Origin: an uncultured Acidobacteriia bacterium
GTDB lineage: Bacteria; Acidobacteriota; Terriglobia; Bryobacterales; Bryobacteraceae
Direction: 5' to 3'
Assembly (NCBI GenBank): GCA_903881085.1
Contig: CAIRSA010000102.1
Span: forward strand, 1-64,000
Length of the DNA: 64,000 bases
Shown here piece after piece: positions 42,911 to 64,000 of the stretch; positions within the stretch are counted from its first letter, which is position 1, and every line of letters begins with the position of its first letter. Both the position numbers and the translations under genes were made by a program. The notes beneath the pieces were generated by a model, which was not told the DNA's origin, ran no database searches, and saw nothing but the letters and a program-made list of their open reading frames with translations.

Positions 42911-44301
42911 TTTTTACTCGCGTTCTTCTTAGAATTACCACCAACTCTTTCGCGCACCTGAAACTCCGCGGAATCGGTCCGTGCGGTCTCCATGATCTGG
43001 CGAATCCGCGCCACGATTTCCGGATTGCCGTCCGCAACATTTTTGCGCTCGCTCAAATCCGCGTGAACATCGTACAACTCGATCACGCCCTGCCTGCCGG
43101 ATCGAACTCCCTTCCAATTGCCCAGTCGGACGGCCTGATCGAATCCCCTCTCGTGGAACTCCCAGTAAAGATATTCATGCTGCTTCTGCGGCTTTCCGAG
43201 AAGTGCCGGCGCCATCGAGATTCCATCGATTCCGTCCGGCGCTGCAATTCCCGCTATCTCTGCCACGGTAGGCAGAAAATCCCAGAAGGCCCAGACTTGA
43301 TCGCTCACGCGACCGGGCTGGATTTTGCCAGGCCACTTCATGATGGATGGAACACGAACGCCACCTTCGTACAGATCGCGCTTGATGCCCCGCAGAGGAC
43401 CGCCGCTTTCGAAATGTCCCGGCTTATGGCCGCCTTCCTGGTGCGGTCCGTTATCGCTGGTGAATAGGACCAGCGTATTCCCAGCCTCGCCGGTCTGCTC
43501 GAGTTTCGCCAGCAGCTTTCCAATGTCCGCATCCATGCGCGTAATCATTGCGGCGAAATTCTTTTCGATCTGCGGCCAGGGCTTCTGTGAATACGGCTCG
43601 TCGCTTGGAACCTCCATCCCATTGCCGGTGTCCCGCCCCATTTCATTGTTGGCGTGGGGAGTCGTATAGCAGACGTGGAGGAAAAACGGTTGCTCGGTTT
43701 TGCGGTCCAGGAACTGAAGCGCGCGTTCGGTAAAAACGTCAGGCGCGTACTCCTTGCGCTGTGTGCCCATGTTCCCCTTCAGCAGGTATGAATGGTCGTT
43801 TTCAAGCAGGTGCTCTGGGTAATAGTTATGGGCGTGGACCTGGCTAAAGTAACCGAACCACTCATCCCAACCTTTTCTCGGTGGATAGCCCGTCGAGCCT
43901 AATTGCCCCAGCGACCACTTGCCAATCAGACCGGTCCGATAGCCCGCTTGCTTTAACAATTCGGCCACAGTCAGATCTTGTGGACGAAGCGGCAGATCAG
44001 GAGACTGATTGCCGCGAGTGCGCGCGTGGCCTGTGTGGAGACCGGTCATCAATGAGCATCGTGATGGAGCGCAGACCGTACTGCCTGCGTAGGCCTGAGT
44101 GAAGCGGACGCCTTCGGCTGCGAGACGGTCGATGTTCGGCGTCTTAATCAACTGCTGTCCATAGCAACCGAGGTCCCCGAAGCCAAGATCATCCGCGAGG
44201 ATAAAAAGGATATTGGGCTTCTTCGCCTGGCCCTGAGCAAGCGACGCGGTCGCGCCGACAATCCCCAAGTCTATCGTTTTCAAAAACGTTCGCCGTTTCA
44301 T
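42907..44301 (-). CDS. Sulfatase (arylsulfatase family)
   Basis: It is a 464-residue enzyme starting MKRRTFLKTIDLGIVGATAS, a Tat-type signal (RRTFLK). The metal-binding NILFILADDLGFGDLGCYG is followed by the formylglycine motif CAPSRCSLMTG (Cys to be modified), TGLIGKWSLG, LFTSDNGPHQEGG and LYEGGVRVPSIMKWPG. It hydrolyses sulfate esters in the periplasm, with polysaccharide or aryl sulfate as substrate. No modifying enzyme is adjacent. The frame upstream to 44412 overlaps the divergent eno promoter region and is not coding. Confidence 0.92.
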   Translation of the reverse strand: MKRRTFLKTIDLGIVGATASLAQGQAKKPNILFILADDLGFGDLGCYGQQLIKTPNIDRLAAEGVRFTQAYAGSTVCAPSRCSLMTGLHTGHARTRGNQSPDLPLRPQDLTVAELLKQAGYRTGLIGKWSLGQLGSTGYPPRKGWDEWFGYFSQVHAHNYYPEHLLENDHSYLLKGNMGTQRKEYAPDVFTERALQFLDRKTEQPFFLHVCYTTPHANNEMGRDTGNGMEVPSDEPYSQKPWPQIEKNFAAMITRMDADIGKLLAKLEQTGEAGNTLVLFTSDNGPHQEGGHKPGHFESGGPLRGIKRDLYEGGVRVPSIMKWPGKIQPGRVSDQVWAFWDFLPTVAEIAGIAAPDGIDGISMAPALLGKPQKQHEYLYWEFHERGFDQAVRLGNWKGVRSGRQGVIELYDVHADLSERKNVADGNPEIVARIRQIMETARTDSAEFQVRERVGGNSKKNASKK

Positions 44302-44363
44302 CACTGTTCTCGAATTGCCTAGTCTCCCACACTCCGCGCTTCGATGCCAAGACTGCGGAAAGT

Positions 44364-44391
44364 TTGCGCTCACAGGTAGCGAAGGTATACA
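44364..44391 (+). promoter_or_regulatory. Possible promoter of the enolase transcript
   Basis: TTGCGC (44364-44369) and TATACA (44386-44391) are 16 bp apart and lie just before the fluoride aptamer. The -35 is weak. Confidence 0.4.
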
Positions 44392-44412
44392 TTGAAATTT
44401 CGATGGAACCAC

Positions 44413-44463
44413 GGTGATGGAGTCTCACCGTTAACCGTCCCCGTTTCCCGGGGAATGATAGCT

Positions 44464-44469
<6 letters not shown>
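44413..44469 (+). ncRNA. Fluoride riboswitch 2 (crcB motif) in front of enolase
   Basis: The sequence reads GGTGATGGAGTCTCACCGTT, AACCGTCCCCGTTTCCCGGG and GAATGATAGCTCCTACC. GGTG pairs with CACC around ATGGAGTCT; the conserved 'UAACCG' follows; CCCCG pairs with CGGGG; and the 3' end UGAURGCUCCUACC matches the family. The sequence is very similar to riboswitch 3 but differs in the loops. Confidence 0.92.
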
Positions 44470-45801
<1,332 letters not shown>

Positions 45802-49200: not shown

Positions 49201-49347
49201 AATGACAACCTGAGGTGGCGCGAATTCGGGATAGACGTCGAACCGCGCGTGCCACGCCGAGTAAATCCCGTAGCCTATAATCAGACACGCAATTGCAACT
49301 ACGGCGCCGCGAAATCGGATGGAGATGGCGACTAACTTCGAGAGCAA
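46255..49347 (-). CDS. Heavy-metal efflux RND permease (CusA/CzcA-like)
   Basis: It is a 1,030-residue inner-membrane permease with 12 transmembrane helices and two large periplasmic loops. The HME-subfamily signature GFAIAIGEVVDDAIIDAENI (acidic pair in transmembrane helix 4) is present, with N-terminal RFDVYPEFAPPQV and the C-terminal LVGFVTLFGITTRNSIMMVS and LPTLCVRYG. It takes monovalent or divalent metal out of the periplasm using the proton gradient. Metal specificity cannot be read. It is the last gene of a CusCBA-type operon and follows the adaptor by 5 bp. Confidence 0.93.
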   Translation of the reverse strand: MLSKLVAISIRFRGAVVAIACLIIGYGIYSAWHARFDVYPEFAPPQVVIQTEAPGLSPENVEQLVTRVVENALNGAPHVETIRSQSIQGLSVVTAVFEDSTDVYRARQIANERLAEAATQLPQGVRPPAMAPLTGTTGLVLVIGITSEKHSETEMRTFAEWTMKPRLLGVPGVARVSLYGGGVRQLQIQIVPERLAAYNLSINDVTAAARSATGVRGAGFVETPAQRIVIETQGQSLTAAQLSNVVLQASGGRSIRLGDVASVQEGIEPKIGNATVMGRPGVMLLISSQFGSNTLEVTRNVEKALDDLKPGIASAGITLYPDLFRPADFVGASLRSMGLALFIGAVLVAIVLLLFLFNLRVAWISLTAIPLSLLVAVIVLTRAGVSLNTLTLGGFAIAIGEVVDDAIIDAENIFRRLRQAGRGLTAKQVFQIVHDASVEVRSAVVYATFIVTLVFLPVLTMSGVQGRLFAPLAWAYILAIVASLLVALTVTPALSYFLLPHAIGSGSEPRLVLVLKEQYARLLRGMSRAPRLIEAGALILVAGAAIAIPFLGGEFLPPLREGHFIVHMVAVPGTSLNESVRLGKLVTAELLKDENVRVVAQQIGRAESGDDTSGVHYSEIHVDLKPLDGEASETAEDRLRDRLEKFPGVSMSPKTFLTERMEEVLSGTRAQVVVQVFGENLDAIDEKAHEILDVLSSVHGAADVQIESPPGTPGVVVDLRPERLVQFGLQPAAVLDAVEAAYQGTTVGQVFEANRVFNVSVILDPRLRNIPEDVGSLLLSNPDGARIRLAEVAEVHQRTARYSIAHEGTRRRQAVYCNVRGRDLSSFVEEAQRAVRAKVKFPEGTYPVFGGVSEARKMAQREILTYSLVAGVGIVLLVAIVFRNTRNTLLVLVNLPFALVGGIFAAILTGGNLSIGSLVGFVTLFGITTRNSIMMVSHFEHLVQFEGESWGLNAAIRGASERLTPVLMTATVTALGLLPLALGSGQTGKEIEGPMAIIILGGLVTSTILNLLVLPTLCVRYGRFEIKTDD

Positions 49348-49352
49348 CTGGG

Positions 49353-50579
49353 CTACTCCTCCTTCACGCTTTCGGGCTTGAATTCCTCAGAGAGGAGCGT
49401 CTGAGCGCCGGTGATGACAATGCGGTCCCCCACGGCCAGTCGCCCCGTAACGAAGTAACCCGTAGCAACCGCGCTTTGAATCTTTACATCTCTTCGAACG
49501 AAAAGGTCGGCTGCGGTCCGCACATAAACGTAGGCGCTGCCCGATAACCGGACCACCGCCGCAGTGGAAATTGTGAAGCCCTTCCGGCTGGCTCCTGGCA
49601 GAGGGAGGTACGCTGTCACAGCGAGCCCAGGCCTGAGACCGAACCGTCCCTCTCGCAACTGGAACAGAAACGATTCGCCGGGGGATTTGGGATCTAAGAC
49701 CGAAGAGGCTGCGATCCGGTCGGCCAATATTACCTCGCTCTCATGCCCGGCGGGAACGACGTGCGCCAACATTGCGGTTGATGGCAGATTCTGACCTACC
49801 GGGAGATCCACTCGCGCCACGAGCCTTTCCAGGCGGGAGATTCTCAGGAGCGGCAGGCCCGCTTCCACGGACTCCCCGGGTCGCGCCATCATCTCCATGA
49901 CGGTTCCGCCCGTCTCAGCGGTCAACCGGGAGGCGGCTGGACCTGAGGTCCGGAGAGAGTTCTCGAGGTTTCGGACGGTAGTACGCGCGGAATCGAGACG
50001 CGCACGTTCTGCCCCAAGCCGCGCTCTCGCTTCTTCGAGGACACGATCCGAGACATTCTTGCCGTCGGCGTTCAGGATGCGAGCGCGCTCGAAAGCCGCC
50101 ACCGCCGCTTCCACGGCTGCTGCCGCTGAATCGCCTTCAGACTGGGCACCGGTCAATTGCGTGGTCAGCGCGATCCGCTCAGCGGGCGCTATACGTGGTG
50201 CAATGAGGCCAACCTCCTGTCCGGGGGCTAGTGTCTGACCGACGGAAGGCCAAGTGCCGCCAGCGGGAATTTGCATAGTACCGGCTACAGGCGCACGCAC
50301 GATGAAGGATCGCGATGGATCTTCTTCGAGATGGCCGTAAGCGATAAGCTGCGGCTGGAAGGACGAGGGCGTGACAGACGCAAGCTCGATCCCGATAAGG
50401 CTCTGTGCAGCTTGCCCCATTCGAATCAGCGGATCTCCCTCCGGTGTGCGAGTAACCACCGCCGGATCCTTCGGTTTCTTCCTCTCTGACTCCTCCCGTT
50501 CAGTGCCGGGTTTGCATCCGATTGAAGTGCAAATGGCAAGGAGGAGCACCAGCCATGCCAGACCGCCATGTTGTCTCAA
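49353..50579 (-). CDS. Periplasmic adaptor (membrane-fusion) lipoprotein of the metal efflux pump
   Basis: It is a 408-residue protein. The lipoprotein signal has LLLAICTSIGC with the modified Cys. A lipoyl/barrel-sandwich part (FIVRAPVAGTMQIPAGGTWP, ETGGTVMEMMARPGESVEAG) flanks a coiled-coil hairpin (AAVEAAVAAFERARILNADG, ARARLGAERARLDSARTTVR). A beta-barrel and a membrane-proximal domain follow. No metal-binding Met cluster is obvious. It overlaps the TolC-like gene stop by 4 bp. Confidence 0.9.
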   Translation of the reverse strand: MRQHGGLAWLVLLLAICTSIGCKPGTEREESERKKPKDPAVVTRTPEGDPLIRMGQAAQSLIGIELASVTPSSFQPQLIAYGHLEEDPSRSFIVRAPVAGTMQIPAGGTWPSVGQTLAPGQEVGLIAPRIAPAERIALTTQLTGAQSEGDSAAAAVEAAVAAFERARILNADGKNVSDRVLEEARARLGAERARLDSARTTVRNLENSLRTSGPAASRLTAETGGTVMEMMARPGESVEAGLPLLRISRLERLVARVDLPVGQNLPSTAMLAHVVPAGHESEVILADRIAASSVLDPKSPGESFLFQLREGRFGLRPGLAVTAYLPLPGASRKGFTISTAAVVRLSGSAYVYVRTAADLFVRRDVKIQSAVATGYFVTGRLAVGDRIVITGAQTLLSEEFKPESVKEE

Positions 50580-51985
50580 TGGTTCCTCCGCGAGGGCGCA
50601 GTTGCAGGAGCATCGCCAATCCGCAGCGCGGCCGTTAGCGGCTGCTGCATCGAATCCTCAACGGCCGCGAGCGCTGCCGACAGTCGTGTGAGGGCGTCGA
50701 GTTGCGCACGGGCGGCGGTAGTGGACTCGAGCCGGACAACCGCGAGGCCAAGCCTATCGCCTTCGCCGGCCTCCAAGGCGCGGCGCGCGGCGGTTTCTCG
50801 TTCAGTTTGAATCTCGACCAGGCGGGCGCCGGCGGTTTGCCATGCTGCGTATGCCGCCCTGTACTGCTCCACCGCTCGAGTCATCTCACCAATCGCCGAC
50901 GCCTGCAATGCTTCGAATTGCGCCGCCACATGTTCGCGCTCCGCCTCGGCCAGGTCGATCAGGACTCTGCTTCGACGCCTGCCGGGCAGGGGTTGCAGAA
51001 CGGTGCTGAGCACAAACCTGGCAAATCCTTCCTCAAAGTTGTAGCCTGGGGTCAGTTGAAGATCTGGGTACTGTTTGGCGACCTCAAGACGCAATACTGC
51101 GTCTGCCGCGCCATAATCCGCCAGCGCACGCCGGACGTCGGCGCGGTGCAGGACGCCCGCTTTCTGCACGACGCGTACCGGCAAGGCATCGGGAAGAATT
51201 GGCGCATCGAGTTCCGGTGCGTGGATTTCAAGACCAGTCAGGGCCTCACCCGGTAGGCCCACGGCGCTCGCCAACGTCATGCGAGTTTGGACCGTCTCGC
51301 CCAGTGCGGTGTTCAGAGCCCATTGCGCATTTAAGAGAGCCACTCTGTAGATGCCGAGTTCCGGGCGAGACGTCTCGCCAACGGCAACGCGCTTATCGAA
51401 GATGCCGGCGATCTCACTTCGAACTGCTACTTCCGTTTCGAGCAGAGCTTTGCGGCGCTCCGCGGTCACGTGGTTGAACAGCGCAGTCCGGACTCGGCTC
51501 CGGACCAACCATCCGCCCTCAGAGAAACCGGCGCGCGCACTCTCGGCCACCTTCTGCGCTTGGAGGATGCGTAGCCCGCGTTTCCCGGCGGTTTCGATCG
51601 TAAAAGACGGCAGGAAACTGTAGAGGGTATGTGATTCCGGGTTGCTGTTGTACCCGGCATCGATCCCGAAGGTCGCGGTAGGCCTCGCGCCCGCTACTGC
51701 GATCCCCGCTTCGGCTGCAGCCAGTCGTGAGCGGGCTACCGCGAGGTCGGGGCTGTAAAAGTAGCCGACAAGCGCCAGCGGGCGTAAATCGAGGACTGTT
51801 GGCGGCCACGCTGCCTGCTGCTCGCCGTTCTGGCTCAGGAAGTCAATCAAGGCCGGTGATGTTAGCGAGCGGGCGCGGTATTCAGTCTCAAGCGCAGGCG
51901 GATTGAGTACTCCCGTCCGATAGCGCACGCACCCGGTAAGAGCCAAGATGCTCAGCCCGAAAAATAGAGAGTATTGTCCGCGCAT
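50576..51985 (-). CDS. TolC-family outer-membrane channel of the metal efflux pump
   Basis: It is a 469-residue protein with a lipoprotein-type start (MRGQYSLFFGLSILALTGC). It has two TolC/OEP repeats of helices (YSPDLAVARSRLAAAEAGIA, AERRKALLETEVAVRSEIAG, and EAEREHVAAQFEALQASAIG, AAYAAWQTAGARLVEIQTER). It completes the tripartite pump. It is the first gene of the operon and is divergent from the response regulator 112 bp away, where both promoters must lie. Confidence 0.88.
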   Translation of the reverse strand: MRGQYSLFFGLSILALTGCVRYRTGVLNPPALETEYRARSLTSPALIDFLSQNGEQQAAWPPTVLDLRPLALVGYFYSPDLAVARSRLAAAEAGIAVAGARPTATFGIDAGYNSNPESHTLYSFLPSFTIETAGKRGLRILQAQKVAESARAGFSEGGWLVRSRVRTALFNHVTAERRKALLETEVAVRSEIAGIFDKRVAVGETSRPELGIYRVALLNAQWALNTALGETVQTRMTLASAVGLPGEALTGLEIHAPELDAPILPDALPVRVVQKAGVLHRADVRRALADYGAADAVLRLEVAKQYPDLQLTPGYNFEEGFARFVLSTVLQPLPGRRRSRVLIDLAEAEREHVAAQFEALQASAIGEMTRAVEQYRAAYAAWQTAGARLVEIQTERETAARRALEAGEGDRLGLAVVRLESTTAARAQLDALTRLSAALAAVEDSMQQPLTAALRIGDAPATAPSRRNH

Positions 51986-52097
51986 CTGTCATTTGAGTGT
52001 TGCAATCGCACCTGAACACGGACATGACGACAAGATTACGATTTCGTCATGTGCGCGAATTCCTTCAGCATCTGGCGCAAACTGGCAGAATAGAGTG

Positions 52098-52772
52098 GTG
52101 CGGCTACTGATTGTCGAAGACGAACCAAAGACGGCGGCCTACCTGAAAAAGGGACTGACCGAGAACGGCTTTGTCGCCGATCTTGTGCATGACGGTGACC
52201 AGGCGGTCGCGTTCGCAACGGCGGGCAAGTACGAGTTGATACTTCTCGACATCATGCTTCCGCATCGCGACGGTTGGTCAGTGCTGGCACACCTGCGGTC
52301 GCGAGGCGATCACACGCCGGTCATTTGCCTGACGGCGCGCGATGCCGTGGATGACCGGGTCAAAGGTCTGCGAGCCGGGGCTGACGACTACCTGACCAAA
52401 CCATTCGCATTTTCAGAATTGCTGGCCCGGATTCATACGGTGTTGCGACGGTCTCCGCAGCGGGCGCCTGATTCTATTCGTGCTGGCGATCTTGAAATTG
52501 ACATGGCCCGGCAACGTGCTACTCGCGGGGGCCGTCGCCTGGACCTGACGCCCAAGGAATTCCTGCTGCTTTCCCTGCTGGCTAGAAATGCCGGGAACGT
52601 GCTGTCACGTACGGTCATTGCAGAGCAGGTGTGGGACATGAACTTCGATTGCGACACGAACGTGGTGGACGTACACGTGCGGCGGTTGCGATCGAAGGTG
52701 GACGACCCCTTTTCCCAGAAGTTGATCCGAACGATTCGGGGTGTCGGCTACGCACTCGATGACGAGGAGTAA
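52098..52772 (+). CDS. CusR/CopR-like response regulator
   Basis: It is a 224-residue regulator, starting at GTG 52098 (or the preceding GTG 52095) with VRLLIVEDEPKTAAYLKKGL. Phospho-acceptor Asp51 lies in LLDIMLPHRDG, with LTARDA and LTKPF. The OmpR-type winged helix shows LTPKEFLLLSLLARN and RTIRGVGYALD. The N-terminal 'EPKTAAYLKKGLTENGF' is typical of heavy-metal regulators of the CusR/IrlR group. It is divergent from the metal pump operon and the likely activator of it. The kinase follows 2 bp later. Confidence 0.92.
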   Translation: MRLLIVEDEPKTAAYLKKGLTENGFVADLVHDGDQAVAFATAGKYELILLDIMLPHRDGWSVLAHLRSRGDHTPVICLTARDAVDDRVKGLRAGADDYLTKPFAFSELLARIHTVLRRSPQRAPDSIRAGDLEIDMARQRATRGGRRLDLTPKEFLLLSLLARNAGNVLSRTVIAEQVWDMNFDCDTNVVDVHVRRLRSKVDDPFSQKLIRTIRGVGYALDDEE

Positions 52773-52774
52773 GC

Positions 52775-54241
52775 ATGGGGAATGGCAAACAGAGTAGCAT
52801 CGCATGGCAGCTTTCGGTTTGGTATGCCGGCTCCGCGTTTCTCCTTCTGGCAGTGGGAACCGGATTCCTCTATTTCGTTCTGGCCCACAGTTTCGATCGG
52901 GAAAACACGGATTACCTCATCGAGAAGACTCGCACGCTTGAAACGCTATTGCGTGAGAGTCCCGTGGAAGAGGCGACTGTGCGATGGGAAGTCGAAGGTG
53001 AATCGATTGCGAATCCGTCGATCCGCGTCCAATCCCGCGTGCTCGCTCCGGATGGTTCAGTCCTCGTCCAGACGGACGGGATGGCCTCAGATCTGCCGCC
53101 AGCGCTGTTCCCGTCGCCGATAAACCTTGGCTCCGAAGCCGTCCGTACCACGGATGTCCACACGCATGCGGGCAAAACGTACCTGTTGATGGCATCGAAT
53201 GTCGATAGCCCCAATCCGGGCCGCCCCGGCACCGGAAGAGGGCCGTACACGCTTCAGGTGGCAATCGATCTGACGTTCGAGAAGGATCTGCTCGCAGGAT
53301 ATCGCCGGCAGCTCTGGATAGTGCTCAGCGTGGGGCTGGTTGCGTCGATTTGGATCGGCCGGCGGATAGCTGTCCGCGGGCTCCGGCCGCTCAGCCACAT
53401 ATCGCATACCGTGCGGCAGACTCGCTCCACCAACATGGAGTCACGCGTGCATGTAGATCGCCTGCCGTCCGAAGTTCAGGAACTTGCTTCGACGTTTAAT
53501 GAAATGCTCGATCGTCTGAGCGATTCGTTCGATCGACTGTCGCGATTCTCGTCGGACATCGCCCACGAGTTGCGGACGCCCGTCAATAACCTCCGCGGTG
53601 AAATTGACCTCGCGCTATCCAAGCGGCGCACGCCTGACGAGTACGTAGATCTTCTCGGTTCTCTATCCGAGGAATGCGAACAACTGACGCGATTGATAGA
53701 CAGGCTGCTGTTTCTTGCGCGGGCTGAACAGCCTGCAATGCAGGTTCACCGGGAGGACTTGGACGTTCGCCGCGAGCTCGATTTGGTCTGTGAGTTTTAT
53801 GAACCCGCCGCGGCGGAGGAGGGTGTGCGGCTCAGCGTCAACGCGCCCAACCGGCTCACCTTTCCGCTTGATCGAACGCTCTTCCAACGCGCCGTCGGTA
53901 ACCTTGTGCAGAACGCAGTGGCACATACTCCGCGCGATGGAGAAGTTCGAGTCGAAGCGCGTGATAGCGATGGTCAACTCGTGGTTTCAGTAATGGACAC
54001 GGGCGCGGGCATTCCCGCGGAGCATTTGCCGCGGTTGTTCGACAGGTTCTATCGAGCTGACCCCGCCCGCACTCGCAATAAGGGCGGAACGGGCTTAGGA
54101 CTCGCCATCGTGCAGAGTATTGCTCGACTGCATGGTGGTATGGTTGCGATTTCGAGCCAGGTCGGGCGCGGTACCATCGTCACGCTGACTTTTACCTCCG
54201 CAGCCGCTGTGGAGAAATTAGGAACAACGGAAGCCCTCTGA
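52775..54241 (+). CDS. CusS-like heavy-metal sensor histidine kinase
   Basis: It is a 488-residue protein. Transmembrane helices are at about 12-36 (VWYAGSAFLLLAVGTGFLYF) and 181-200 (LWIVLSVGLVASIWIGRR), bounding a 145-residue periplasmic sensor. HAMP follows, then HisKA with His in DIAHELRTPVNNL, and HATPase_c (NLVQNAVAHT, MDTGAGIPAEHL, GGTGLGLAIVQS). The 'DIAHELRTPxNNLRGEIDLAL' form is typical of heavy-metal kinases (TIGR01386-like). It is translationally close to the regulator (GAGGAG over the regulator stop). Confidence 0.92.
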   Translation: MGNGKQSSIAWQLSVWYAGSAFLLLAVGTGFLYFVLAHSFDRENTDYLIEKTRTLETLLRESPVEEATVRWEVEGESIANPSIRVQSRVLAPDGSVLVQTDGMASDLPPALFPSPINLGSEAVRTTDVHTHAGKTYLLMASNVDSPNPGRPGTGRGPYTLQVAIDLTFEKDLLAGYRRQLWIVLSVGLVASIWIGRRIAVRGLRPLSHISHTVRQTRSTNMESRVHVDRLPSEVQELASTFNEMLDRLSDSFDRLSRFSSDIAHELRTPVNNLRGEIDLALSKRRTPDEYVDLLGSLSEECEQLTRLIDRLLFLARAEQPAMQVHREDLDVRRELDLVCEFYEPAAAEEGVRLSVNAPNRLTFPLDRTLFQRAVGNLVQNAVAHTPRDGEVRVEARDSDGQLVVSVMDTGAGIPAEHLPRLFDRFYRADPARTRNKGGTGLGLAIVQSIARLHGGMVAISSQVGRGTIVTLTFTSAAAVEKLGTTEAL

Positions 54242-55172: not shown

Positions 55173-56450
55173 CTATCTCTCTCGCAGGCGGGCAAGCGCA
55201 ACAGTACCTGCCGCCATCAACGCAGCGGCCAACCCGAAGCTGAACTCCGGCGAAATAGCCGTCCACAGCACACCAACGGCGGTGCTGGAAATAAACTTGG
55301 CCGTCCCGTTGACTGTCCCGAGCGCGCCATAGCTGATGGCCAGCGTATCCGCGCTGACCATATCGGCGGTGACTGTTGATTCCAAAGCTTCCTGCACTGC
55401 GATATAGATGCCGCCGACGAGGAAAATAAGCCCGAGGAACACGATACTGTCAAGCCTGAACCAGAAGGCCAGCGCGGTCAGGATGGCTGAGAGCGCTCCG
55501 AGCGCATAGCCGGCGACCAGCACAGGCAAGGATCTGAAACGGTCGGCAAGCACGCCGACTGGGTAGGAGACGACGGCCTGCACAATATTGCGTCCGACGT
55601 AGAGCAGGCCCGCAACCTGGGCGGCATGGACCACTCCCATCGAGGCGGTGAGCAACTGCGTCGCGGCCAGGATCAGCAGGCTATGGGAGAAGTCGCCGAT
55701 ACCGAAGAGACCGACGGCTCCGAGGTAGCGTTTGAACCGCGCTGGCAATCCGCGCAGCACGTTGAAGAACTTCAAGGCCGGGTTCGGCGTTTGTTCAGGA
55801 TCTTTCACCAGGAGCAGGAAGCTCAGCACAGCCAGCACGCCCGGGATGACGCTCAGCCACAAGACGAGACGGAACGGCTCCGCAGCGTTCCCGGGATACC
55901 AGGCCTGTGCCCAGCCGAGCAGCGCCACGCCGAGCAATGGACCAAGAACCGCGCCTACGGTATCCATCGCCCGGTGAAAACCGAACGCGCGCCCCCGCGT
56001 CTCGGAGCTGATGGACTGGACCACGATGGCGTCCCGCAAAGGTCCGCGGAGTCCCTTGCCGAACCACGAGACTACACGGCCGCTCAACAGCAGCGGCCAT
56101 CCGGCCGACATGGCGATGAGAACCTGCCCGAGCGGGGTGAGACCGTAGCCGACGAGAACCAGGAACTTGCGATGACCGAGCTTGGCTGCGATATATCCCG
56201 ACGCCATCGCAGTAAAACTGGCGACGGCGTCAGCGATACCCTCGATCGTGCCCAGAACCGCCGCGGGAATGCCGAGGACAGCAAGAAACCCCGGCAGGAT
56301 GACGGTGGTGGTCTCATAGCAGAAATCACCTAGCGCACTGGTGAGGCCAGCCCCGGCAACAGTGCTGTTGAGCCAGCCCTTCGGCGGCGGTGGTGTATCC
56401 GGCGGCCCTAGGATCGGCTGTGTCCCGGTGGATTTAGAAGAATCGCTCAT
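55173..56450 (-). CDS. MFS transporter
   Basis: It is a 425-residue protein with 12 transmembrane helices. The N-terminal tail is proline-rich (GPPDTPPPPKGW). Then come TSALGDFCYETTTVILPGFL, the A-like motif GYIAAKLGHRKFLV, SWFGKGLRGPLRDAIVVQSI and AFGFHRAMDTVGAVLGPLLG. The GKGLRGPLRDAI motif defines a group of unassigned transporters in soil bacteria. Substrate unknown. It is divergent from the fluoride-regulated operon, with about 160 bp between, but on the other strand from the riboswitch. Confidence 0.87.
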   Translation of the reverse strand: MSDSSKSTGTQPILGPPDTPPPPKGWLNSTVAGAGLTSALGDFCYETTTVILPGFLAVLGIPAAVLGTIEGIADAVASFTAMASGYIAAKLGHRKFLVLVGYGLTPLGQVLIAMSAGWPLLLSGRVVSWFGKGLRGPLRDAIVVQSISSETRGRAFGFHRAMDTVGAVLGPLLGVALLGWAQAWYPGNAAEPFRLVLWLSVIPGVLAVLSFLLLVKDPEQTPNPALKFFNVLRGLPARFKRYLGAVGLFGIGDFSHSLLILAATQLLTASMGVVHAAQVAGLLYVGRNIVQAVVSYPVGVLADRFRSLPVLVAGYALGALSAILTALAFWFRLDSIVFLGLIFLVGGIYIAVQEALESTVTADMVSADTLAISYGALGTVNGTAKFISSTAVGVLWTAISPEFSFGLAAALMAAGTVALARLRER

Positions 56451-56562: not shown

Positions 56563-56592
56563 TTGACATGTCACTTGCGCTCGCGATATAGT
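56563..56592 (+). promoter_or_regulatory. Promoter of the riboswitch 3 operon
   Basis: TTGACA (56563-56568) and TATAGT (56587-56592) are 18 bp apart. The expected start of transcription falls about ten bases before the aptamer. Confidence 0.65.
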
Positions 56593-56612
56593 GCATTTTG
56601 AAGTTGAATTGC

Positions 56613-56668
56613 GGTGATGGATCTCACCGGTAACCGTCCCCGCAACGCGGGGAATAATAGCTCCTACC
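56613..56668 (+). ncRNA. Fluoride riboswitch 3 (crcB motif) in front of the RND-DUF1080-TolC-MFP-RND operon
   Basis: The sequence reads GGTGATGGATCTCACCGGTA, ACCGTCCCCGCAACGCGGGG and AATAATAGCTCCTACC. Stem GGTG/CACC, then UAACCG, then CCCCGC/GCGGGG, and the 3' UAAUAGCUCCUACC are those of the fluoride aptamer. It is the same class and subtype as riboswitch 2, which sits 12 kb away in front of enolase. Nearby frames that start inside it (ATG 56614) are not coding. Confidence 0.92.
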
Positions 56669-56693
56669 AAAAGGTAGGGGCTATTGTTGTTTT
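56663..56693 (+). terminator. Intrinsic terminator of riboswitch 3
   Basis: CCTACC-AAAA-GGTAGG is followed by GGCTATTGTTGTTTT. The 5' arm overlaps the aptamer's last bases. The ATG of the RND gene begins at 56701, right after the terminator. Confidence 0.85.
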
Positions 56694-56700
56694 GGACCAC

Positions 56701-59700
56701 ATGAATTCGAACTCACCGGCTGCTCATAACATAACAACGCCCTCCAAGCTCGCCGGTTTCGTGGATGCACACGGACGCGCACTCGTGCTGATATTTCTGA
56801 GTTTGGCGCTGGCCGGATTCGTCTTTTCATTGAGGCTTCCAATTGCCATTTTTCCGCAGACGGATTTCCCGCGGATCATCATCATGGTCAATAACGGCAT
56901 CGCACCGGTCGACGTACAGATGCTTACGGTGACGCGGCCGATCGAGGAATCCATCCGAATCGTGCCGGGCATCACCAATGTCCGTTCGGTCACCAGCAGG
57001 GGAGGTTCGGAGATTAGCGTGTACTTTCGATGGGACGTCGACATTCTGCACGCCCTCCATCTTGTCCAAGGCCGAATTGCCCAATTAATGCCCAACATGC
57101 CGCCAGAGGCCAGGTTTTATGTCAACCGATTGACTTTCTCGGTCTTCCCGATGATCGGCTTCAGCATTACATCTCCGAACCGGAATACGTCGGAGTTGTG
57201 GGATCTCGCCTACTACAATCTCTCTCCCCGCCTTTACCGGTTGCCTGGGGTAGCGGAGACGCGGATCGTCGGCGGCCGCGCGCCCGAATACCATGTGCTG
57301 GTCAATCCGGAAAAGCTCAACGGATATGGGCTTCCATTGACGCGAATCGTGGACGCGATTCGCAATGCGAACCTTATCGGAGCAGCTGGCATGGTGCAGG
57401 AGAACTATCACCTTTACCTCACAACGGTCAACGGCTTGTTGAGAAGTCCCGCCGAAATTGAGAACACGGTGGTAGACGTCGTGAAGGGGACGCCCGTCCT
57501 GGTGAAAAACCTTGCAACCGTGGTTCCGGGAGAGCGTCCCGTCTACACCATTGTCACCGCCGACGGACTGCCGGCCGTTCTCGTAAATGTGATGCAACAG
57601 CCTGATGGGAACGCGTTAACCATCGCCGACGCGGTCCATCGCGAGCTTGAGGAGATGCAAAAATCGCTCCCGCCGGATGTTCGCCTAAGCGTCTTTTATG
57701 ACCAGTCGGTGCTCGTTCGTGATTCCATTAACAGCGTCGCCGAGAGCATCCTAATCGGCCTTGGCTTGTCGGTGGCGGTGCTCGTCGCCTTCCTGAAGAA
57801 CTGGCGAACCACCGTGGTTACCGCCGTAGTGATTCCGATCGCGGTGCTGATCGCGATCGTGTTCATGAAGCTCTTCAACATGAGTTTTAATCTGATGACG
57901 CTGGGAGGCATCGCCGCCTGTATCGGCGTGGTGATTGACGATGCCATCGTGATGGTGGAGAACATCACCGTGCACTTGTCGCTAGGCCAGAACCCCCGCC
58001 AGGCGGCGATGAGCGCGATTCAGGAACTGACGCCGGCGCTGATTGGCTCAACCCTGACGCCAATCGTTGTCTTCGCGCCGTTGGTGTTTCTAGGCGGGAT
58101 CACAGCAGTGTTCTTCCGTGCTCTTGCCCTCACGATGGTGACAGCTCTGCTGGCGTCGTTGTTTCTCGCGATTCTGTTCACGCCGGTCCTGGCCCGGATG
58201 TTCCTCCAAGCTCCGCGCGGCCCGGTCGAAACCGATCTGGAAAAGGCGGAGCAGGCCGGCGAAGGGCGCGTCCTGCGATGGTTGACCGCGCGCTACGAAA
58301 CCGCCCTGCACTGGTCGCTGGTCCACACCCGGCTTGTACTCCTGGCTTCGCTAGGCGTGCTGGCAGGATCCGTTGTACTGTACCTTCAGCTTGGCAGCGG
58401 CTTCCTCCCGGCGATGGACGAGGGTGCCTTTGTCGGAGACTACCTGATGCCGCCGGGAACCTCATTAGAGGAAACAAACCGGGTGCTTCGCAATATTGAG
58501 CGGATCGTGAAGGAAACGCCGGAGGTGGAGAGCTACTCCCGCCGCACGGGCGCGCGTCTCGCGCTCGCCACCGCCGAGCCGAACTTCGGAGACTTCCTGA
58601 TAAAGTTGAAGCGGAAGCGAAAACGGTCCGCCGATGAGGTGATCCAGTCGCTTCGCCAACGTATAAGGAGTACGGAACCCGCCATCGAAATCGAGTTCGC
58701 TCATATTCTTGAAGACCTGATCACAGACCTGGTGGCATCACCCCAACCAATCGAGATTCGCGTCTTCCACGACGATGAGAAAACATTCAAGCTGGTGGCC
58801 GCCAAAATCGCGGAATGGCTTCCTTCCGTAAAAGGCGTGGTCGACGTCGTCAATCGAACGACTGTGATCGGCCCAACCAATCATTTTCGGGTCGATCAGC
58901 AAAAGGCTGCATTGGCGGGTTTCAGTGTCAGGGATGTTCTGGATCTGCAATCCGCGGTGCTCGACGGCACGGTAACTTCCAATATGATTCGGGGCGACAG
59001 GATGCTCGGCATTCGCGTGCGCTACCCACCCGAATATCGTTCCACTACGGAGAAGTTGCAAGGCCTCCTGCTAACCTCGCCGAAGGGCAAGACCGTTCCG
59101 CTGGCCAGCATCGCTGACCGCCAGTTAGAAGAAGGACAGACTGAGATTCGCCGCTTCGATCTGCGAAACATGTCGGCCGTGACTGCCAGGCTTGAGGGCC
59201 GCGACCTTGGAACCGCAATGGAGGAGGTGCAGCGCAGGCTTTCTCATGAGGTCTCGCTTCCTCCTGCCACGGAGGTGCAATTCGGAGGTTTGTGGGAGAT
59301 TCAGCAGGAATCGTTCCGCGGCTTGACACAAGTGCTGCTGATGTCAATCCTGTTGATTTTCATCATTCTCGTTTTTGAGTTCCGCTCGTTCTCCCACCCC
59401 ATCGCGATTTTGGTTGCCACGATTCTGTGCGGCTCCGGCGCGCTGCTGGCTCTTTACCTCACTGGGACGACACTCAATATTTCATCGTTTATGGGCGGCA
59501 TTATGGTGGTCGGCATCGTACACAAGAATGGGATCCTAATGCTTGACTCGGAACAATATTTCTCGAAGCGGGGTTATGACCTGCGAGAGGCGATTTTTCA
59601 TGCCGGCAGAAGACGCCTGCGGCCGATTCTGATGACCGCCCTGGCGACGATCTTCGGGATGATGCCGTTGGCATTTGGTGTCGGTTCGGGTGCGCAGATG

Positions 59701-59808
59701 TTGCAGCCGCTCGCGATTGCAGTGATAGGTGGCGTCGCAGTTTCCATGGTGCTTTCACTCTTGGTGACGCCGGTTCTGTTTTACAAACTCCGGCAACGGG
59801 GAATTTAA
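56701..59808 (+). CDS. RND efflux permease 1 of the fluoride-regulated operon
   Basis: It is a 1,035-residue inner-membrane permease with 12 transmembrane helices: RALVLIFLSLALAGFVFSLR (TM1), IFPQTDFPRIIIMVNNG, the TM4 region TLGGIAACIGVVIDDAIVMV, and MGGIMVVGIVHKNGILMLDS near the C-terminus. The Asp-Asp proton-relay pair (VVIDDAIVM) is present. The subfamily is hydrophobe/multidrug-like and not clearly metal. The start at ATG 56701 lies immediately after the riboswitch terminator and lacks a strong ribosome site, so an initiation a little later cannot be excluded. It resembles the second permease at 63103 over its whole visible length. Confidence 0.93.
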   Translation: MNSNSPAAHNITTPSKLAGFVDAHGRALVLIFLSLALAGFVFSLRLPIAIFPQTDFPRIIIMVNNGIAPVDVQMLTVTRPIEESIRIVPGITNVRSVTSRGGSEISVYFRWDVDILHALHLVQGRIAQLMPNMPPEARFYVNRLTFSVFPMIGFSITSPNRNTSELWDLAYYNLSPRLYRLPGVAETRIVGGRAPEYHVLVNPEKLNGYGLPLTRIVDAIRNANLIGAAGMVQENYHLYLTTVNGLLRSPAEIENTVVDVVKGTPVLVKNLATVVPGERPVYTIVTADGLPAVLVNVMQQPDGNALTIADAVHRELEEMQKSLPPDVRLSVFYDQSVLVRDSINSVAESILIGLGLSVAVLVAFLKNWRTTVVTAVVIPIAVLIAIVFMKLFNMSFNLMTLGGIAACIGVVIDDAIVMVENITVHLSLGQNPRQAAMSAIQELTPALIGSTLTPIVVFAPLVFLGGITAVFFRALALTMVTALLASLFLAILFTPVLARMFLQAPRGPVETDLEKAEQAGEGRVLRWLTARYETALHWSLVHTRLVLLASLGVLAGSVVLYLQLGSGFLPAMDEGAFVGDYLMPPGTSLEETNRVLRNIERIVKETPEVESYSRRTGARLALATAEPNFGDFLIKLKRKRKRSADEVIQSLRQRIRSTEPAIEIEFAHILEDLITDLVASPQPIEIRVFHDDEKTFKLVAAKIAEWLPSVKGVVDVVNRTTVIGPTNHFRVDQQKAALAGFSVRDVLDLQSAVLDGTVTSNMIRGDRMLGIRVRYPPEYRSTTEKLQGLLLTSPKGKTVPLASIADRQLEEGQTEIRRFDLRNMSAVTARLEGRDLGTAMEEVQRRLSHEVSLPPATEVQFGGLWEIQQESFRGLTQVLLMSILLIFIILVFEFRSFSHPIAILVATILCGSGALLALYLTGTTLNISSFMGGIMVVGIVHKNGILMLDSEQYFSKRGYDLREAIFHAGRRRLRPILMTALATIFGMMPLAFGVGSGAQMLQPLAIAVIGGVAVSMVLSLLVTPVLFYKLRQRGI

Positions 59809-59825
59809 GAAAAGGGGAAAACGAA

Positions 59826-60419
59826 ATGAAACAATTGTTATTCGCTCTCTTGACAAGCGGAGTCATCCTGATGGCTCAGACCGGAACGAAAGGCGGAGTC
59901 GCCTTGTTCGACGGCAAGACCCTGGCGGGATGGCATCCCGAAGGACAGGCCAAATGGCGCGTTGCGGGTGGAGCCATCGTCGCTGACGTAAGCGGAGATG
60001 GCTGGTTGCGATCCGATAAAGTGTATACGAATTTTGTCTTGAACTTCGAGTACCGGGATTCTCCGAAAGGCAACAGCGGCGTCTTTCTTCGCGCTACGAA
60101 GGAGACCAATCCCAAAGAGCAGTGCAACCCCGTGGATGGTTACGAATTCCAGATCAACAACGAAGACGCTAAATACGCGACCGGTAGCATTGAGGACGTC
60201 ATCCAACGTCTTGCGACCATCAATCCCGCGCCCAACCAATGGCACAAGGTCGAAGTCACGGTCCGCGGCAACCACATCGTAGCTACTCTTGACGGGCAGA
60301 AAACGGTGGATGGGTCGGATTCAAAACTCAAGTCGGGCTACATTGGTCTTCAGCATCACAAGGACATGAAGATCGAGTTCCGCGGCATCCGGATCGCTGA
60401 CCTTGGCGCTGGTAATTGA
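59826..60419 (+). CDS. DUF1080 (3-keto-disaccharide hydrolase-like) protein
   Basis: It is a 197-residue exported protein. The signal peptide MKQLLFALLTSGVILMAQ is followed by one DUF1080 domain: VALFDGKTLAGWHPEGQAKW, SDKVYTNFVLNFEYRDSPKG, NSGVFLRATKET, GYEFQINNEDAKYATGSIED, ATINPAPNQWHKVEVTVRGN and GYIGLQHHKDMKIEFRGIRI. The domain is a concanavalin-like beta-sandwich found in enzymes that cleave 3-keto sugars. It is short (one domain only) and lies 17 bp after the RND gene with an AGGGGA site, so it is in the operon. Why a sugar-acting enzyme sits in an efflux operon is unclear. Confidence 0.85.
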   Translation: MKQLLFALLTSGVILMAQTGTKGGVALFDGKTLAGWHPEGQAKWRVAGGAIVADVSGDGWLRSDKVYTNFVLNFEYRDSPKGNSGVFLRATKETNPKEQCNPVDGYEFQINNEDAKYATGSIEDVIQRLATINPAPNQWHKVEVTVRGNHIVATLDGQKTVDGSDSKLKSGYIGLQHHKDMKIEFRGIRIADLGAGN

Positions 60420-60590
60420 AGTAAGCGACCCTTTTGATGAGAGCTGGAAATCTGGGATAGCATAGTTGTTTATTTTTAATGATGATTGGGTCTAACTCGA
60501 AACCGTCGGATCCTCGCGGAAACGACAGTTCCAGCAGAATGAACAGAGCCCCTGTAGTTGTGGACCCAATCACTAGGAGGAACTCGATAC
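60420..60590 (+). other. 171-bp leader between the DUF1080 and TolC genes with an inverted repeat
   Basis: TGATTGGGTC (about 60483-60492) recurs inverted as GACCCAATCA (about 60564-60573), so about 90 bases could form a long-range stem. It ends in AGGAGG, the TolC ribosome site. This may be an RNA control point or a processing site. Confidence 0.3.
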
Positions 60591-61871
60591 GTGCGAAATT
60601 TTGTCTTCAACGCCGCAACGGCGCTAACCGTAGCTGCCATTTCATTACAAGCGCAGCAGACGCAGCCGCTTACGTTGCAGGAATGCATACGGCTGGCGGA
60701 ATCAGTCCCGTCGTCAGTGAGTCTCGCCCGCCAGGAACGCGACATTGCGGCGCGAGAATTAACGCAAGCGCGCGCCGGGTTCCTGCCGCAGTCCCGATTT
60801 GTGAACGGCTTTACTTACAACAGTCCCCTGCCCAATAGCCGGGAAGCCTTCAGCTTTGTTACAGCCAACGGAATCCGCGAGTATTCGTCTCTCCTCAGCG
60901 TCAATCAGGAATTCGACACCACCGGCCGCTTACGAGCCGACATGGCACGTGCGCGGGTGGCGCAGGATATCACGGCCGCCGGCCTGGCCCTCACGCAACG
61001 CGATCTCAGGCGCGCTGTAACCCTGGCGTACTATCGAGCCTTGCTCACACGCCGCATCGTCCGCGTCTTAGAGGACGGGCTCACCGAGAGCCAGAGTTTT
61101 GAAAAACGTTCGAAATTGCTTCTTGAAGGCGGAGAAGCCGCACAGGCCGATGTCGTCAAAGCCTCCGCTCAGGTGGCCTTCCTGCAACAGGCGCGCAACG
61201 CCGCTGAAATGGAGGCGAATCTTGCCAACCAGGAGTTGGCCTCATTCTGGACTCGCGACGTAGCTGACACGCTGCCACTGGCCGATCTTTTCGAAGACAC
61301 CCCGCAGCCGCCGGAGTCAGAGACCATTAAAGCCACACCGTTCCTGAAGCGGTTGGAATTCAATCTACTCGAGGCCCAAAAGCGCGGATTTCAGGCCGAC
61401 GCACGGCGCGCGCGTTCCGCACTGATGCCACAATTAGGAGTCGCCTTCCAATACGGAATCGATTCCACGGCGGTTCGGATTCGCGATCGAGGCTATGCCG
61501 CATCCGTCAACCTGAACATTCCGATTTTCGACTGGCACAAAGCCCGCGCGGCAACCGAGCAGGCACGTCTCAAAGCGCAGCAGGTTGACACATCTCGCGC
61601 CATTTCCGAACGTACGTTTTCGAAGGAGTATCACAGCGCGCTGACGCGCGTGAAGCAGCTTTACGAGCAAATTGCATTGACGCGCAGGCAGGCCGGGCTT
61701 GCCGAAGACGATCTGCGGCTGAGCCGGATCCGCTACGAAGGCGGGGAGGGAATAGCGCTCGACGTTGTAACCGCGCAAAATCAACTCGCGCAGGCACGGA
61801 GTAACTACTACACAACCATGGCCAACTACTTAAATGCTAAAGCCGATCTGGAGGTTGCAACAGGACGATGA
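60591..61871 (+). CDS. TolC-family outer-membrane protein of the fluoride-regulated operon
   Basis: It is a 426-residue protein starting at GTG 60591 behind AGGAGG. The signal peptide VRNFVFNAATALTVAAISLQ is followed by two OEP repeats (ECIRLAESVPSSVSLARQER, ALTQRDLRRAVTLAYYRALL, and ARAATEQARLKAQQVDTSRA, LRLSRIRYEGGEGIALDVVT). It ends NYLNAKADLEVATGR. It forms the outer channel of the pump with the adaptor that follows by 4-bp overlap. Confidence 0.9.
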   Translation: MRNFVFNAATALTVAAISLQAQQTQPLTLQECIRLAESVPSSVSLARQERDIAARELTQARAGFLPQSRFVNGFTYNSPLPNSREAFSFVTANGIREYSSLLSVNQEFDTTGRLRADMARARVAQDITAAGLALTQRDLRRAVTLAYYRALLTRRIVRVLEDGLTESQSFEKRSKLLLEGGEAAQADVVKASAQVAFLQQARNAAEMEANLANQELASFWTRDVADTLPLADLFEDTPQPPESETIKATPFLKRLEFNLLEAQKRGFQADARRARSALMPQLGVAFQYGIDSTAVRIRDRGYAASVNLNIPIFDWHKARAATEQARLKAQQVDTSRAISERTFSKEYHSALTRVKQLYEQIALTRRQAGLAEDDLRLSRIRYEGGEGIALDVVTAQNQLAQARSNYYTTMANYLNAKADLEVATGR

Positions 61872-63106
61872 AACGACTTAACTTGCTATTACTGCCCGCT
61901 CTCATTCTGGCGGGATGCGCTTCGCACCAGGAGGAGGCGCCTCCGAAACCAATCGTGCAGGTGAAGGTCGCCAAAGCCGAATTGGCTGAAATGAAAATAA
62001 CGGTGCACGCGCCGGCGTTCCTCTTTGCTCGCGAACAGGCAAACATAGGCGCGCGCATCACGGCCCCGATTCGGAAATTGCTTGTGCGCAAGGGCGATCG
62101 CGTTGCAGCCGGCCAGCTATTGGCACAACTGGACAACCGCGACATTATTGCACAGCGCGATGAGGCCAACGCCGCTGTGTCCGATGCTCAAGCCAACCTG
62201 CAACGAGTGACATCCGGAACCGTACCTACCGAAATCGAGCGTTCGCGAGGGCAGGTTGTTACTACGGAAGCCGCGTTGAACCAGGCGCAAAAATTTTACG
62301 ACCGCCGCAAGCAGCTCTTCGACCAGGGTGCGATTCCGCAGCGCGAAGTCCAACTCAGCGAAACCGAGTTGGCGCAGGCCAAATCAAACCACGACGTGGC
62401 GAAGAAGTCTCTCGACCTGCTGATGAATCAGTCCCGCGGCCAGGACATCCTGATGGCGAAGAGCAAGGTGGAGCAAGCCCAGGCACGGCTCTCGCTGCTC
62501 AAGACGCAATTGGAGTTCGCTGAAATCCGTAGCTCCTCTGCAGGCACGATCACCGAACAGTTCATGTTTCCAGGCGACATGGCAAAACCCGACGCGCCGA
62601 TCTTTACTGTGATGGACCTCAGTGTCGCCGTCGCTCGCGCGCAACTGCCTGAGAGCGAAATCGCTGGAGTACGCGTCGGATCTGGGTGTACATTCACTCC
62701 TGCCGACGGCGGAGGAAAATCCTACAACGGCCGCATTTCCGTGGTCAACCAAGCTGTCGACACGATGAAACGCACCGTGGAGGCATGGTGCGAGATCCCC
62801 AATCCAAATCTGACTCTACGCAGCGGCGCTTTCGGAGAGGCGCTCATCACTACCGGCACGGCAGCCAATAGCGTGACGGTGCCCTTAGCCGCCGTACAGT
62901 TCGCCGAAGGGTCAAAGAAAGGCATCGTCATGGTGGATGGCGGCAAGGGGACCGCCTCGAAGAAGGAAGTCGAAACCGGACAGGTTTTCGAGGGCAAGGT
63001 TCAGATCAAGAGCGGAATCAACGCCGGAGATTCCGTCATCGTTGAGGGTGGATACGGATTGCCCGACGGCGCTCAAATCAAAATGGCGGAGGCAAAGAAA
63101 CAGTGA
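61868..63106 (+). CDS. Membrane-fusion (adaptor) lipoprotein of the fluoride-regulated operon
   Basis: It is a 412-residue protein. The lipobox LILAGC is in MKRLNLLLLPALILAGCASH. The biotinyl-lipoyl part (IRKLLVRKGDRVAAGQLLAQ) is split around a coiled-coil (AVSDAQANLQRVTSGTVPTE, TTEAALNQAQKFYDRRKQLF, KSKVEQAQARLSLLKTQLEF). The beta-barrel (AGTITEQFMFPGDMAKPDAP) and distal domain end VIVEGGYGLPDGAQIKMAEA. The stop overlaps the next start as GTGA at 63103-63106. Confidence 0.92.
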   Translation: MKRLNLLLLPALILAGCASHQEEAPPKPIVQVKVAKAELAEMKITVHAPAFLFAREQANIGARITAPIRKLLVRKGDRVAAGQLLAQLDNRDIIAQRDEANAAVSDAQANLQRVTSGTVPTEIERSRGQVVTTEAALNQAQKFYDRRKQLFDQGAIPQREVQLSETELAQAKSNHDVAKKSLDLLMNQSRGQDILMAKSKVEQAQARLSLLKTQLEFAEIRSSSAGTITEQFMFPGDMAKPDAPIFTVMDLSVAVARAQLPESEIAGVRVGSGCTFTPADGGGKSYNGRISVVNQAVDTMKRTVEAWCEIPNPNLTLRSGAFGEALITTGTAANSVTVPLAAVQFAEGSKKGIVMVDGGKGTASKKEVETGQVFEGKVQIKSGINAGDSVIVEGGYGLPDGAQIKMAEAKKQ

Positions 63107-64000
63107 CTGATCGCCTCGCTCATTTTGTTCAGGCGCACGCCCGCGCCATGGTCGTAATCGTTCTCAGTTTTGCACTCGCCGGACTAGCCTTCATATTTCG
63201 TCTGCCTGTTGCAATATTCCCGCAAACGGATTTCCCACGCATCGTAGTGCTGGTGGATAATGGCATCACGCCGGTGGATATCCAGATGCTGCGCGTCACC
63301 CGGCCAATCGAGGAGACCATTCGCATTGTCCCAGGCGTTACAACTATTCGTTCGGTCACGGCGCGGGGTGCGACCGAAATCAGCATTTTCTTCAGGTGGG
63401 ATGTGGACATTCTGAATGCCCTACATTTGGTGCAGGGACGTATTTCGCAGATCACTCCTTCGCTGCCGCCGACTTGCCGGTTCTACATTAACCGGCTGAC
63501 CTTTTCGGTCTTTCCCATGGTCGGATTCAGTATCACTTCTCCCACCCGCTCACAATCGGACCTTTGGGAGTTGGCATATTACAACTTCGCGCCGCGCCTC
63601 TATAGACTACCCGGCGTCGCGGAAGCGCGCATCGTTGGAGGGCGCCCTCCCGAGTACCACGTTTTGGTGGATCCCCAGAAATTAAACAGTTACGGGATGC
63701 CTCTCACCAAGGTAACCGAGGCGCTACGTAACAACAATATTATTTCGCCATCCGGCATGGTGCAGGAGAACTACCACCTCTATCTGACCACCGTGACCGG
63801 CTTGTTGCGCACTCGCGAGCAGATTGAGGACACCGTGATCGATGTCGTGCGCGGCACTCCAGTGGCAGTGAAGAATCTAGCCACCGTGGTTGCAGGCGAG
63901 CGGCCGATCTATAACGTCGTTACCGCTAACGGACGGTCTGCGGTGTTGGTCAACGTCCTACAGCAACCGGACGGCAATGCGGTGAAGATCGCCGACTCGG
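63103..64000 (+). CDS. RND efflux permease 2 of the fluoride-regulated operon (cut by the window end)
   Basis: The frame opens at GTG 63103 (TDRLAHFVQAHARAMVVIVL) and stays open to the window end, giving about 299 residues. It follows permease 1 closely: SFALAGLAFIFRLPVAIFPQ, TRPIEETIRIVPGVTTIRSV, FSVFPMVGFSITSPT, RLYRLPGVAEARIVGGRPPE, SGMVQENYHLYLTTVTGLL. So the operon encodes two related permeases for one adaptor and one outer channel; they may work as a heteromultimer like MdtBC (inferred). The TM4 proton-relay region lies outside the window. Confidence 0.9.
   Translation, partial: MTDRLAHFVQAHARAMVVIVLSFALAGLAFIFRLPVAIFPQTDFPRIVVLVDNGITPVDIQMLRVTRPIEETIRIVPGVTTIRSVTARGATEISIFFRWDVDILNALHLVQGRISQITPSLPPTCRFYINRLTFSVFPMVGFSITSPTRSQSDLWELAYYNFAPRLYRLPGVAEARIVGGRPPEYHVLVDPQKLNSYGMPLTKVTEALRNNNIISPSGMVQENYHLYLTTVTGLLRTREQIEDTVIDVVRGTPVAVKNLATVVAGERPIYNVVTANGRSAVLVNVLQQPDGNAVKIADS

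Follow-up and report, generated by a model that had tools for sequence, protein, structure and literature searches.

Bacteria are known to defend themselves against fluoride by exporting the ion through the inner membrane and by replacing the enzymes that it poisons. Weinberg et al. 2010 named mutS and genes for K+/Cl- transport and formate hydrogen lyase among those linked to fluoride riboswitches (PMC2864571), and a 2024 review adds exporters, antiporters, pyrophosphatase, haloacid dehalogenases and enolase, leaving RND pumps unmentioned (PMC11139923). In Enterobacter cloacae FRM, RND genes lie beside the fluoride island GI3 and were not induced (0.9- and 1.4-fold) (PMC5533749). Here we describe a fluoride riboswitch at the head of an operon for a tripartite RND efflux pump in an uncultured soil-type acidobacterium of the family Bryobacteraceae (assembly GCA_903881085.1, contig CAIRSA010000102.1, positions 1 to 64,000; this 64,000-nucleotide stretch is called the window). 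The locus resembles GI3, likewise a fluoride island of several genes that has a fluoride switch and RND genes; in GI3, however, the RND genes lie outside the switched operon, whereas in the window the switch begins the RND operon itself. It also shares with other members of the RF01734 regulon the aptamer, the overlapping terminator, the expected ON logic and the partners CrcB, Na+/H+ antiporter and enolase, but the gene classes given in PMC2864571 and PMC11139923 do not include a tripartite RND operon. A literature search turned up no fluoride riboswitch described as controlling an RND operon, a mention in the supplement of Baker et al. 2012 being possible. We propose, with a probability of roughly 0.6, that the operon is part of a fluoride-resistance island, that fluoride relieves termination ahead of it, and that the permease RND1, the adaptor and TolC form a pump for a toxicant arising under fluoride stress.

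The switch and the operon behind it

The leader and genes of the operon, at window positions, are as follows.

56563-56592, + strand: putative sigma-70-type promoter, TTGACA-18-TATAGT, matching 11 of 12 consensus bases
56604-56673, + strand: fluoride riboswitch aptamer (RF01734), covariance model match
56654-56695, + strand: terminator hairpin, which includes the aptamer's 3' pseudoknot strand, and U-rich tract, from folding
56701-59808, + strand: RND1, an intact RND permease of 1035 aa (ACR_tran, E 1e-238)
59826-60419, + strand: exported protein of the DUF1080 / 3-keto-disaccharide hydrolase-like type (PF06439, E 1e-40)
60591-61871, + strand: TolC-type outer-membrane factor (OEP, E 8e-42), start refined to GTG 60591
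61868-63106, + strand: periplasmic adaptor (membrane fusion protein) with a lipoprotein-like signal (TIGR01730, 177 bits against a cut-off of 94.9)
63103-64000, + strand: RND2 permease, running on to contig base 66174 past the window end, 90% identical to the intact orthologue at locus L096

Against RF01734 the aptamer scores 37.9 bits (E 9.7e-8 for 10 kb), above the gathering cut-off of 34 bits, and it reaches 55.4 bits with R1, a local model built anew on 25 aptamers of acidobacteria that include the present one. P1 and P2 are paired, and the pseudoknot comprises 5 pairs with one U-C mismatch. The expression platform overlaps the 3' strand of the aptamer as a 15-bp hairpin (56654-56687; -22.5 kcal/mol, z -5.4, with none of 200 shuffles equally stable) followed by an imperfect U-tract, and only 27 nt separate the end of the aptamer from the start codon of RND1. 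The same hairpin design is found in the leader of an enolase switch 12 kb away and at loci L096, L142 and L144. The aptamer, the overlapping terminator, the near-consensus promoter and the tripartite operon behind them had all been proposed in an earlier note made from the letters alone, and each is borne out here, the promoter as a consensus match and the operon by its ACR_tran, TolC and adaptor matches and by its recurrence across genera.

From this layout and from the known class (PMC2864571), the element would act as an ON switch that relieves termination. RNA polymerase would initiate at the TTGACA/TATAGT promoter. In the absence of fluoride it would stop ahead of RND1, at the terminator into which the aptamer's 3' strand would then pair; with fluoride, the pseudoknot would hold that strand, no terminator would form, and read-through would proceed via RND1 and the DUF1080 gene into those for TolC and the adaptor. 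That fluoride controls the operon is, in our judgement, very likely.

Recurrence of the pairing

A search with RF01734 of 150 genomes of the same family, of which 57 were positive, was followed by mapping of genes in the flanks of the switches. In this sample a switch stands directly before a TolC-adaptor-RND operon at L036, L050, L055, L060 and L161, and at L093 a dynamin-like gene lies between the two. A second search, in which the permease alignment was compared with 84,980 species genomes and the loci were then scanned with the local model, added L104, L120, L132 (Acidicapsa dinghuensis 4GSKX) and L142, as well as L098 weakly (21.8 bits). The full set of direct loci reads L036/L100, L050/L144, L055/L111, L060/L096, L161, L104, L120, L132, L142 and, weakly, L098, so that about ten Acidobacteriota genomes besides that of the window carry the switch directly before the operon. 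The earlier note had asked whether switch, RND genes and DUF1080 gene travel together; the first two do, and the DUF1080 linkage is confined to the window operon.

Six of the 27 orthologous operons in the family sample are directly switch-linked, against about 0.008 expected if the 114 switches were spread over transcription units assumed to number some 2,500 in each genome, and the association is therefore not due to chance. For ten RND-linked aptamers, 95.2% of the cells in P1, P2 and the pseudoknot are paired, and sliding of the partners lowers this to 46-64%, which argues that the aptamers are maintained in the RND context. The switch-linked permeases belong to one clade, in which orthologues share 65% identity or more with the L060 protein; the next RND paralogue in the genome of the window is 47% identical to that protein and the others at most 30%. 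On a tree of 59 permeases, drawn up with the switch linkage of L131 (= G016) not yet labelled, the label 'behind a fluoride switch' requires 7 changes, at least 5 of them forced by supported branches. Switch linkage was found for 12 of 46 acidobacterial orthologous loci (9 direct, 1 via the dynamin gene and 2 with an adjoining divergent switch), and none of the 30 best switches from a search across the phylum had an RND, TolC or adaptor match alongside. In the operon of the closest relative, an enolase fragment (L096:11100-11633, about 101 aa aligned) lies directly 3' of the RND gene.

These results bear on the idea that the switch is decayed or an accidental neighbour of an RND operon that is transcribed independently. 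The aptamer and U-tract are slightly sub-optimal and one switch within the window operon has already decayed (see below), yet the stability of the hairpin, the promoter immediately upstream, the short distance to the start codon and the recurrence in other genomes make such an accident very improbable.

A fluoride-resistance island

Three fluoride switches pass the E 1e-4 threshold in the whole genome (11.9 Mb). They share the contig of the window and lie within 15 kb, the other two being 12-15 kb upstream of the RND operon.

44404-44474, + strand: second fluoride switch, before enolase (45 bits)
44521-45801, + strand: enolase (Pfam)
41790-41852, - strand: third fluoride switch (32.4 bits with RF01734, 55.8 bits with R1)
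40514-41722, - strand: Na+/H+ antiporter behind the third switch (PF00999)
40118-40492, - strand: CrcB/Fluc fluoride channel (PF02537)
39039-40146, - strand: two DUF190 proteins (PF02641)

Behind the third switch, the listed antiporter, CrcB and DUF190 genes are joined by one for an AAA protein. The fluoride regulon classically includes enolase, antiporter and CrcB (PMC11139923), and the presence of companion switches, which the earlier note did not mention, on the antiporter-CrcB-DUF190 run and on enolase places the RND operon in a fluoride-resistance island and makes this interpretation much stronger.

Other genes occur in and around the island. A sulfatase and a beta-propeller protein (41897-44412, - strand) lie between the enolase and antiporter switches and have no switch of their own. 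At 46255-54241 (- strand), inside the island, an operon encoding TolC, an adaptor and an RND permease of CzcA-like type, accompanied by a divergent two-component system, is likewise devoid of a fluoride switch. A major facilitator superfamily (MFS) transporter (55173-56450, - strand) is divergent from the RND switch, and its homologues (27-50% identical) adjoin fluoride switches in several relatives. Upstream of the island an int-alpA RNA (RF02996, 50 bits) is found at 19227-19292, and downstream, at contig positions 68.4-79 kb, are genes that look phage-structural; mobile-element sequence therefore lies on both sides of the island.

A rearranged operon with a fossil switch

Every other switch-linked operon is ordered switch, TolC, adaptor, RND, whereas in the window RND1 and the DUF1080 gene are inserted before TolC. 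The ancestral order is switch-TolC-adaptor-RND, and RND2 is the ancestral permease of the window operon. RND1 is 74% identical to RND2, yet closer to the lineage of L131, L133, L114 and L115, one member of which, G016 (= L131), itself sits behind a fluoride switch; RND1 may have brought its own switch. Two further features lie between the DUF1080 gene and TolC.

60453-60595, + strand: fossil of the ancestral fluoride switch, its terminator and the first TolC codons, by alignment to the L096 leader
60575-60580, + strand: AGGAGG, a new Shine-Dalgarno sequence for TolC, where relatives have ATG start codons

Compared with the live L096 leader, the fossil is identical at 95 of 146 positions (score 77, against a shuffle maximum of 39) and extends from the -10 region through aptamer and terminator into the first TolC codons. 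Its aptamer scores at most 0.7 bits, P1 is broken and the terminator hairpin is lost (z -0.16), so that this decayed switch would form no terminator before TolC. Where relatives start with ATGATG, the window has ACTAGG, a change that created AGGAGG ahead of GTG 60591, which, as judged from the sequence, is most likely the start codon of TolC. A possible fossil switch, with no covariance score, also lies upstream of TolC at L097 and at L103 (z about 6).

The ancestral permease appears to be decaying as well. At contig positions 64285-64287, just beyond the window, RND2 has an in-frame TGA where orthologues have Cys or Ser, and at 64306-64308 IDVA replaces the invariant IDDA, with loss of the proton-relay aspartate; RND2 is probably non-functional as assembled. 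The ratio of nonsynonymous to synonymous substitution rates (dN/dS) between RND2 and L096 is 0.04, by which the decay, if real, is recent, and which rules out a long-dead pseudogene. Reading of TGA as selenocysteine or under another code is not favoured, given the Cys or Ser in orthologues, the single such codon and the loss of the next conserved Asp, and a hetero-pump of RND1 and RND2 resembling MdtB/MdtC is not favoured either, as each of the other operons encodes a single permease and RND2 is interrupted. Of the two permeases described in the earlier note, RND1 is thus intact and RND2 doubtful. That note had also counted the DUF1080 protein as part of the system; its gene is absent from every other switch-linked RND operon, and a role as functional partner was rejected for want of conservation. 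By its distribution, the DUF1080 gene is a passenger that arrived with the extra RND1. We read the locus as an older switch-TolC-adaptor-RND2 operon that was taken over by an upstream switch-RND1-DUF1080 unit, whereupon the inner switch and RND2 became dispensable.

The pump and its substrate

The operon unites an ACR_tran permease, an adaptor and a TolC protein, the parts of a tripartite RND pump. RND1 keeps the proton relay, with the IDDA pair in transmembrane helix 4 (TM4) and a Lys in TM10 (VHKNG), which RND2 with its IDVA and TGA does not. RND1, adaptor and TolC are likely to constitute a working pump; driven by protons, it would clear from the envelope a compound that is harmful under fluoride stress.

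Judged by sequence, the pump lies between metal and drug pumps. Its best NCBIfam match is a multidrug model (NF033617, 639.7 bits against a cut-off of 1250); TIGR00915 gives 464 against 940 and TIGR00914, the model for the HME (CusA/CzcA) metal subfamily, 525.9 against 701.45, so that every curated subfamily cut-off, including those for HAE-1, is missed. Of the solved proteins, the Zn pump ZneA matches best by sequence (383 bits), with MdtB behind it at 352. A predicted permease structure (mean predicted local distance difference test score 76.8) is equally close to CusA (template modelling score 0.87) and to AcrB/AcrD (0.83-0.88). The ACR_tran fold, the adaptor and TolC partners, the IDDA motif and the TM10 Lys align the pump with AcrB and MdtB (HAE-1/MdtBC-like pumps), from which it differs in being only about 25% identical to solved members, in lacking deep-pocket Phe residues of the AcrB type recognisable in alignment and in its control by a riboswitch. 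With HME pumps it shares ZneA as closest solved sequence and CusA as joint best fold, but the HME motif in TM4 (DFGxxxDGA) is absent.

Acid soils are rich in complexes of Al with fluoride. As fluoride alters the speciation of Al, Zn and Mg, the pump could instead clear metal ions or their complexes from the periplasm, a role for which the abundance of Al-F complexes in such soils, the lead of ZneA over MdtB and the CusA fold match, level with AcrB/AcrD, would speak. The failed CusA/CzcA cut-off, with a higher score for the multidrug model, the IDDA pair in TM4 as in AcrB-type pumps and the adjoining genuine CzcA-type operon, which carries no fluoride switch, render this role improbable.

An amphiphilic metabolite or envelope toxicant is a more likely substrate than free fluoride, which is made unlikely by the CrcB channel in the island, by the passage of this small ion through porins and by the absence of nearby fluoride genes from most orthologues. 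Our confidence in any specific substrate is low, and the neighbours of orthologues that lack a switch gave no consistent clue. RND/TolC pumps are suited to organic amphiphiles and the switch reports fluoride, so one could imagine, with the earlier note, export of fluorinated organic compounds; fluoride released through defluorination would signal their presence. This is quite improbable: no gene for defluorination or organofluorine metabolism was recognised in the island or at the annotated switch-RND loci, the rest of the island resembles a defence against inorganic fluoride, and the location of most pump orthologues outside any fluoride context argues for a non-fluorinated substrate. The narrower proposal of a dedicated exporter that clears across both membranes one specific molecule of fluoride poisoning, be it a fluorinated or a fluoride-induced metabolite, as distinct from ion export by Fluc/CLC-F, is likewise rather unlikely.

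Several points weigh against the proposal made at the outset. In the leader these are the pseudoknot mismatch, an A (common to L111) at a 3' core position of the aptamer that is normally G, and the interruption of the terminator U-tract by Gs (UUGUUUU), which left the terminator unlisted by a simple terminator scan. The assembly is a metagenome-assembled genome with 5.4% estimated contamination, and an assembly error may account for the TGA, and likewise for the IDVA site, of RND2. Finally, 34 of the 46 orthologous loci have no switch at the operon and just one of these, L107, is near fluoride genes; with most orthologues outside a fluoride context, the pump has other jobs. The 33 loci that lack both a nearby fluoride switch and a nearby fluoride gene indicate that the fluoride response has co-opted a pump which does not always belong to it.

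The pump might accordingly serve a general envelope or acid-stress response in which fluoride is one trigger, with no dedicated fluoride-related substrate. Two-component systems flank the orthologues at L107, L115, L127 and L130 (others being flanked by unrelated genes), and the prominence of dynamin-like GTPases behind the fluoride switches of the family (see below) suggests that fluoride stress reaches the membrane. The repeated, apparently independent placement of the pump directly behind fluoride switches nevertheless implies a fluoride-specific benefit, and switch-RND loci lie in islands with CrcB, enolase, pyrophosphatase and MutS-like genes; we hold a purely general role to be somewhat doubtful and prefer a pump that acts against a toxicant of fluoride stress.

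Other genes behind acidobacterial fluoride switches

Dynamin-like GTPases remodel membranes. Members of this family (PF00350, mostly 570-720 aa) are apparently the commonest first genes behind fluoride switches in the bacterial family sampled, a single-linkage cluster accounting for about 46 of about 115 switches, with several members confirmed by Pfam (L051:693-2432, L079:10468-12546 on the - strand, L089:11798-13555 on the - strand, L093:715-2784 and about 40 others). A literature search found no paper that links dynamin to fluoride riboswitches; inhibition of GTPases by AlF or BeF is a possible reason for the linkage.

At L036 (G018:C300), six fluoride switches occur within 20 kb, their targets being TolC-RND, MutS-like, AAA, pyrophosphatase and DUF190 genes and one for a NuoH-like protein near enolase. 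Gene pairs with MutS_V follow a fluoride switch at L100:11201-14352 (both genes) and L120:1307-4548 (at least the first). A protein of 307-321 aa is encoded behind a fluoride switch at L039:9983-10945, L050:9352-10272 (- strand) and L144:354-1274; an MFS transporter gene lies directly 3' of it at L050 and L144, and the L039 and L144 members had no Pfam match.

Significance

The window preserves a rare intermediate, namely a riboswitch fossil within an operon that has come under another copy of the switch further upstream. The unrearranged form is present in Acidicapsa dinghuensis 4GSKX, a named strain in which genetics may thus be possible. Efflux across both membranes appears to be a means of fluoride survival in these acidobacteria that has gone undescribed. 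If this is true, fluoride poisoning would create, or coincide with, another toxicant that can be exported, and the switch-RND operons would add a testable set of genes for fluoride tolerance.

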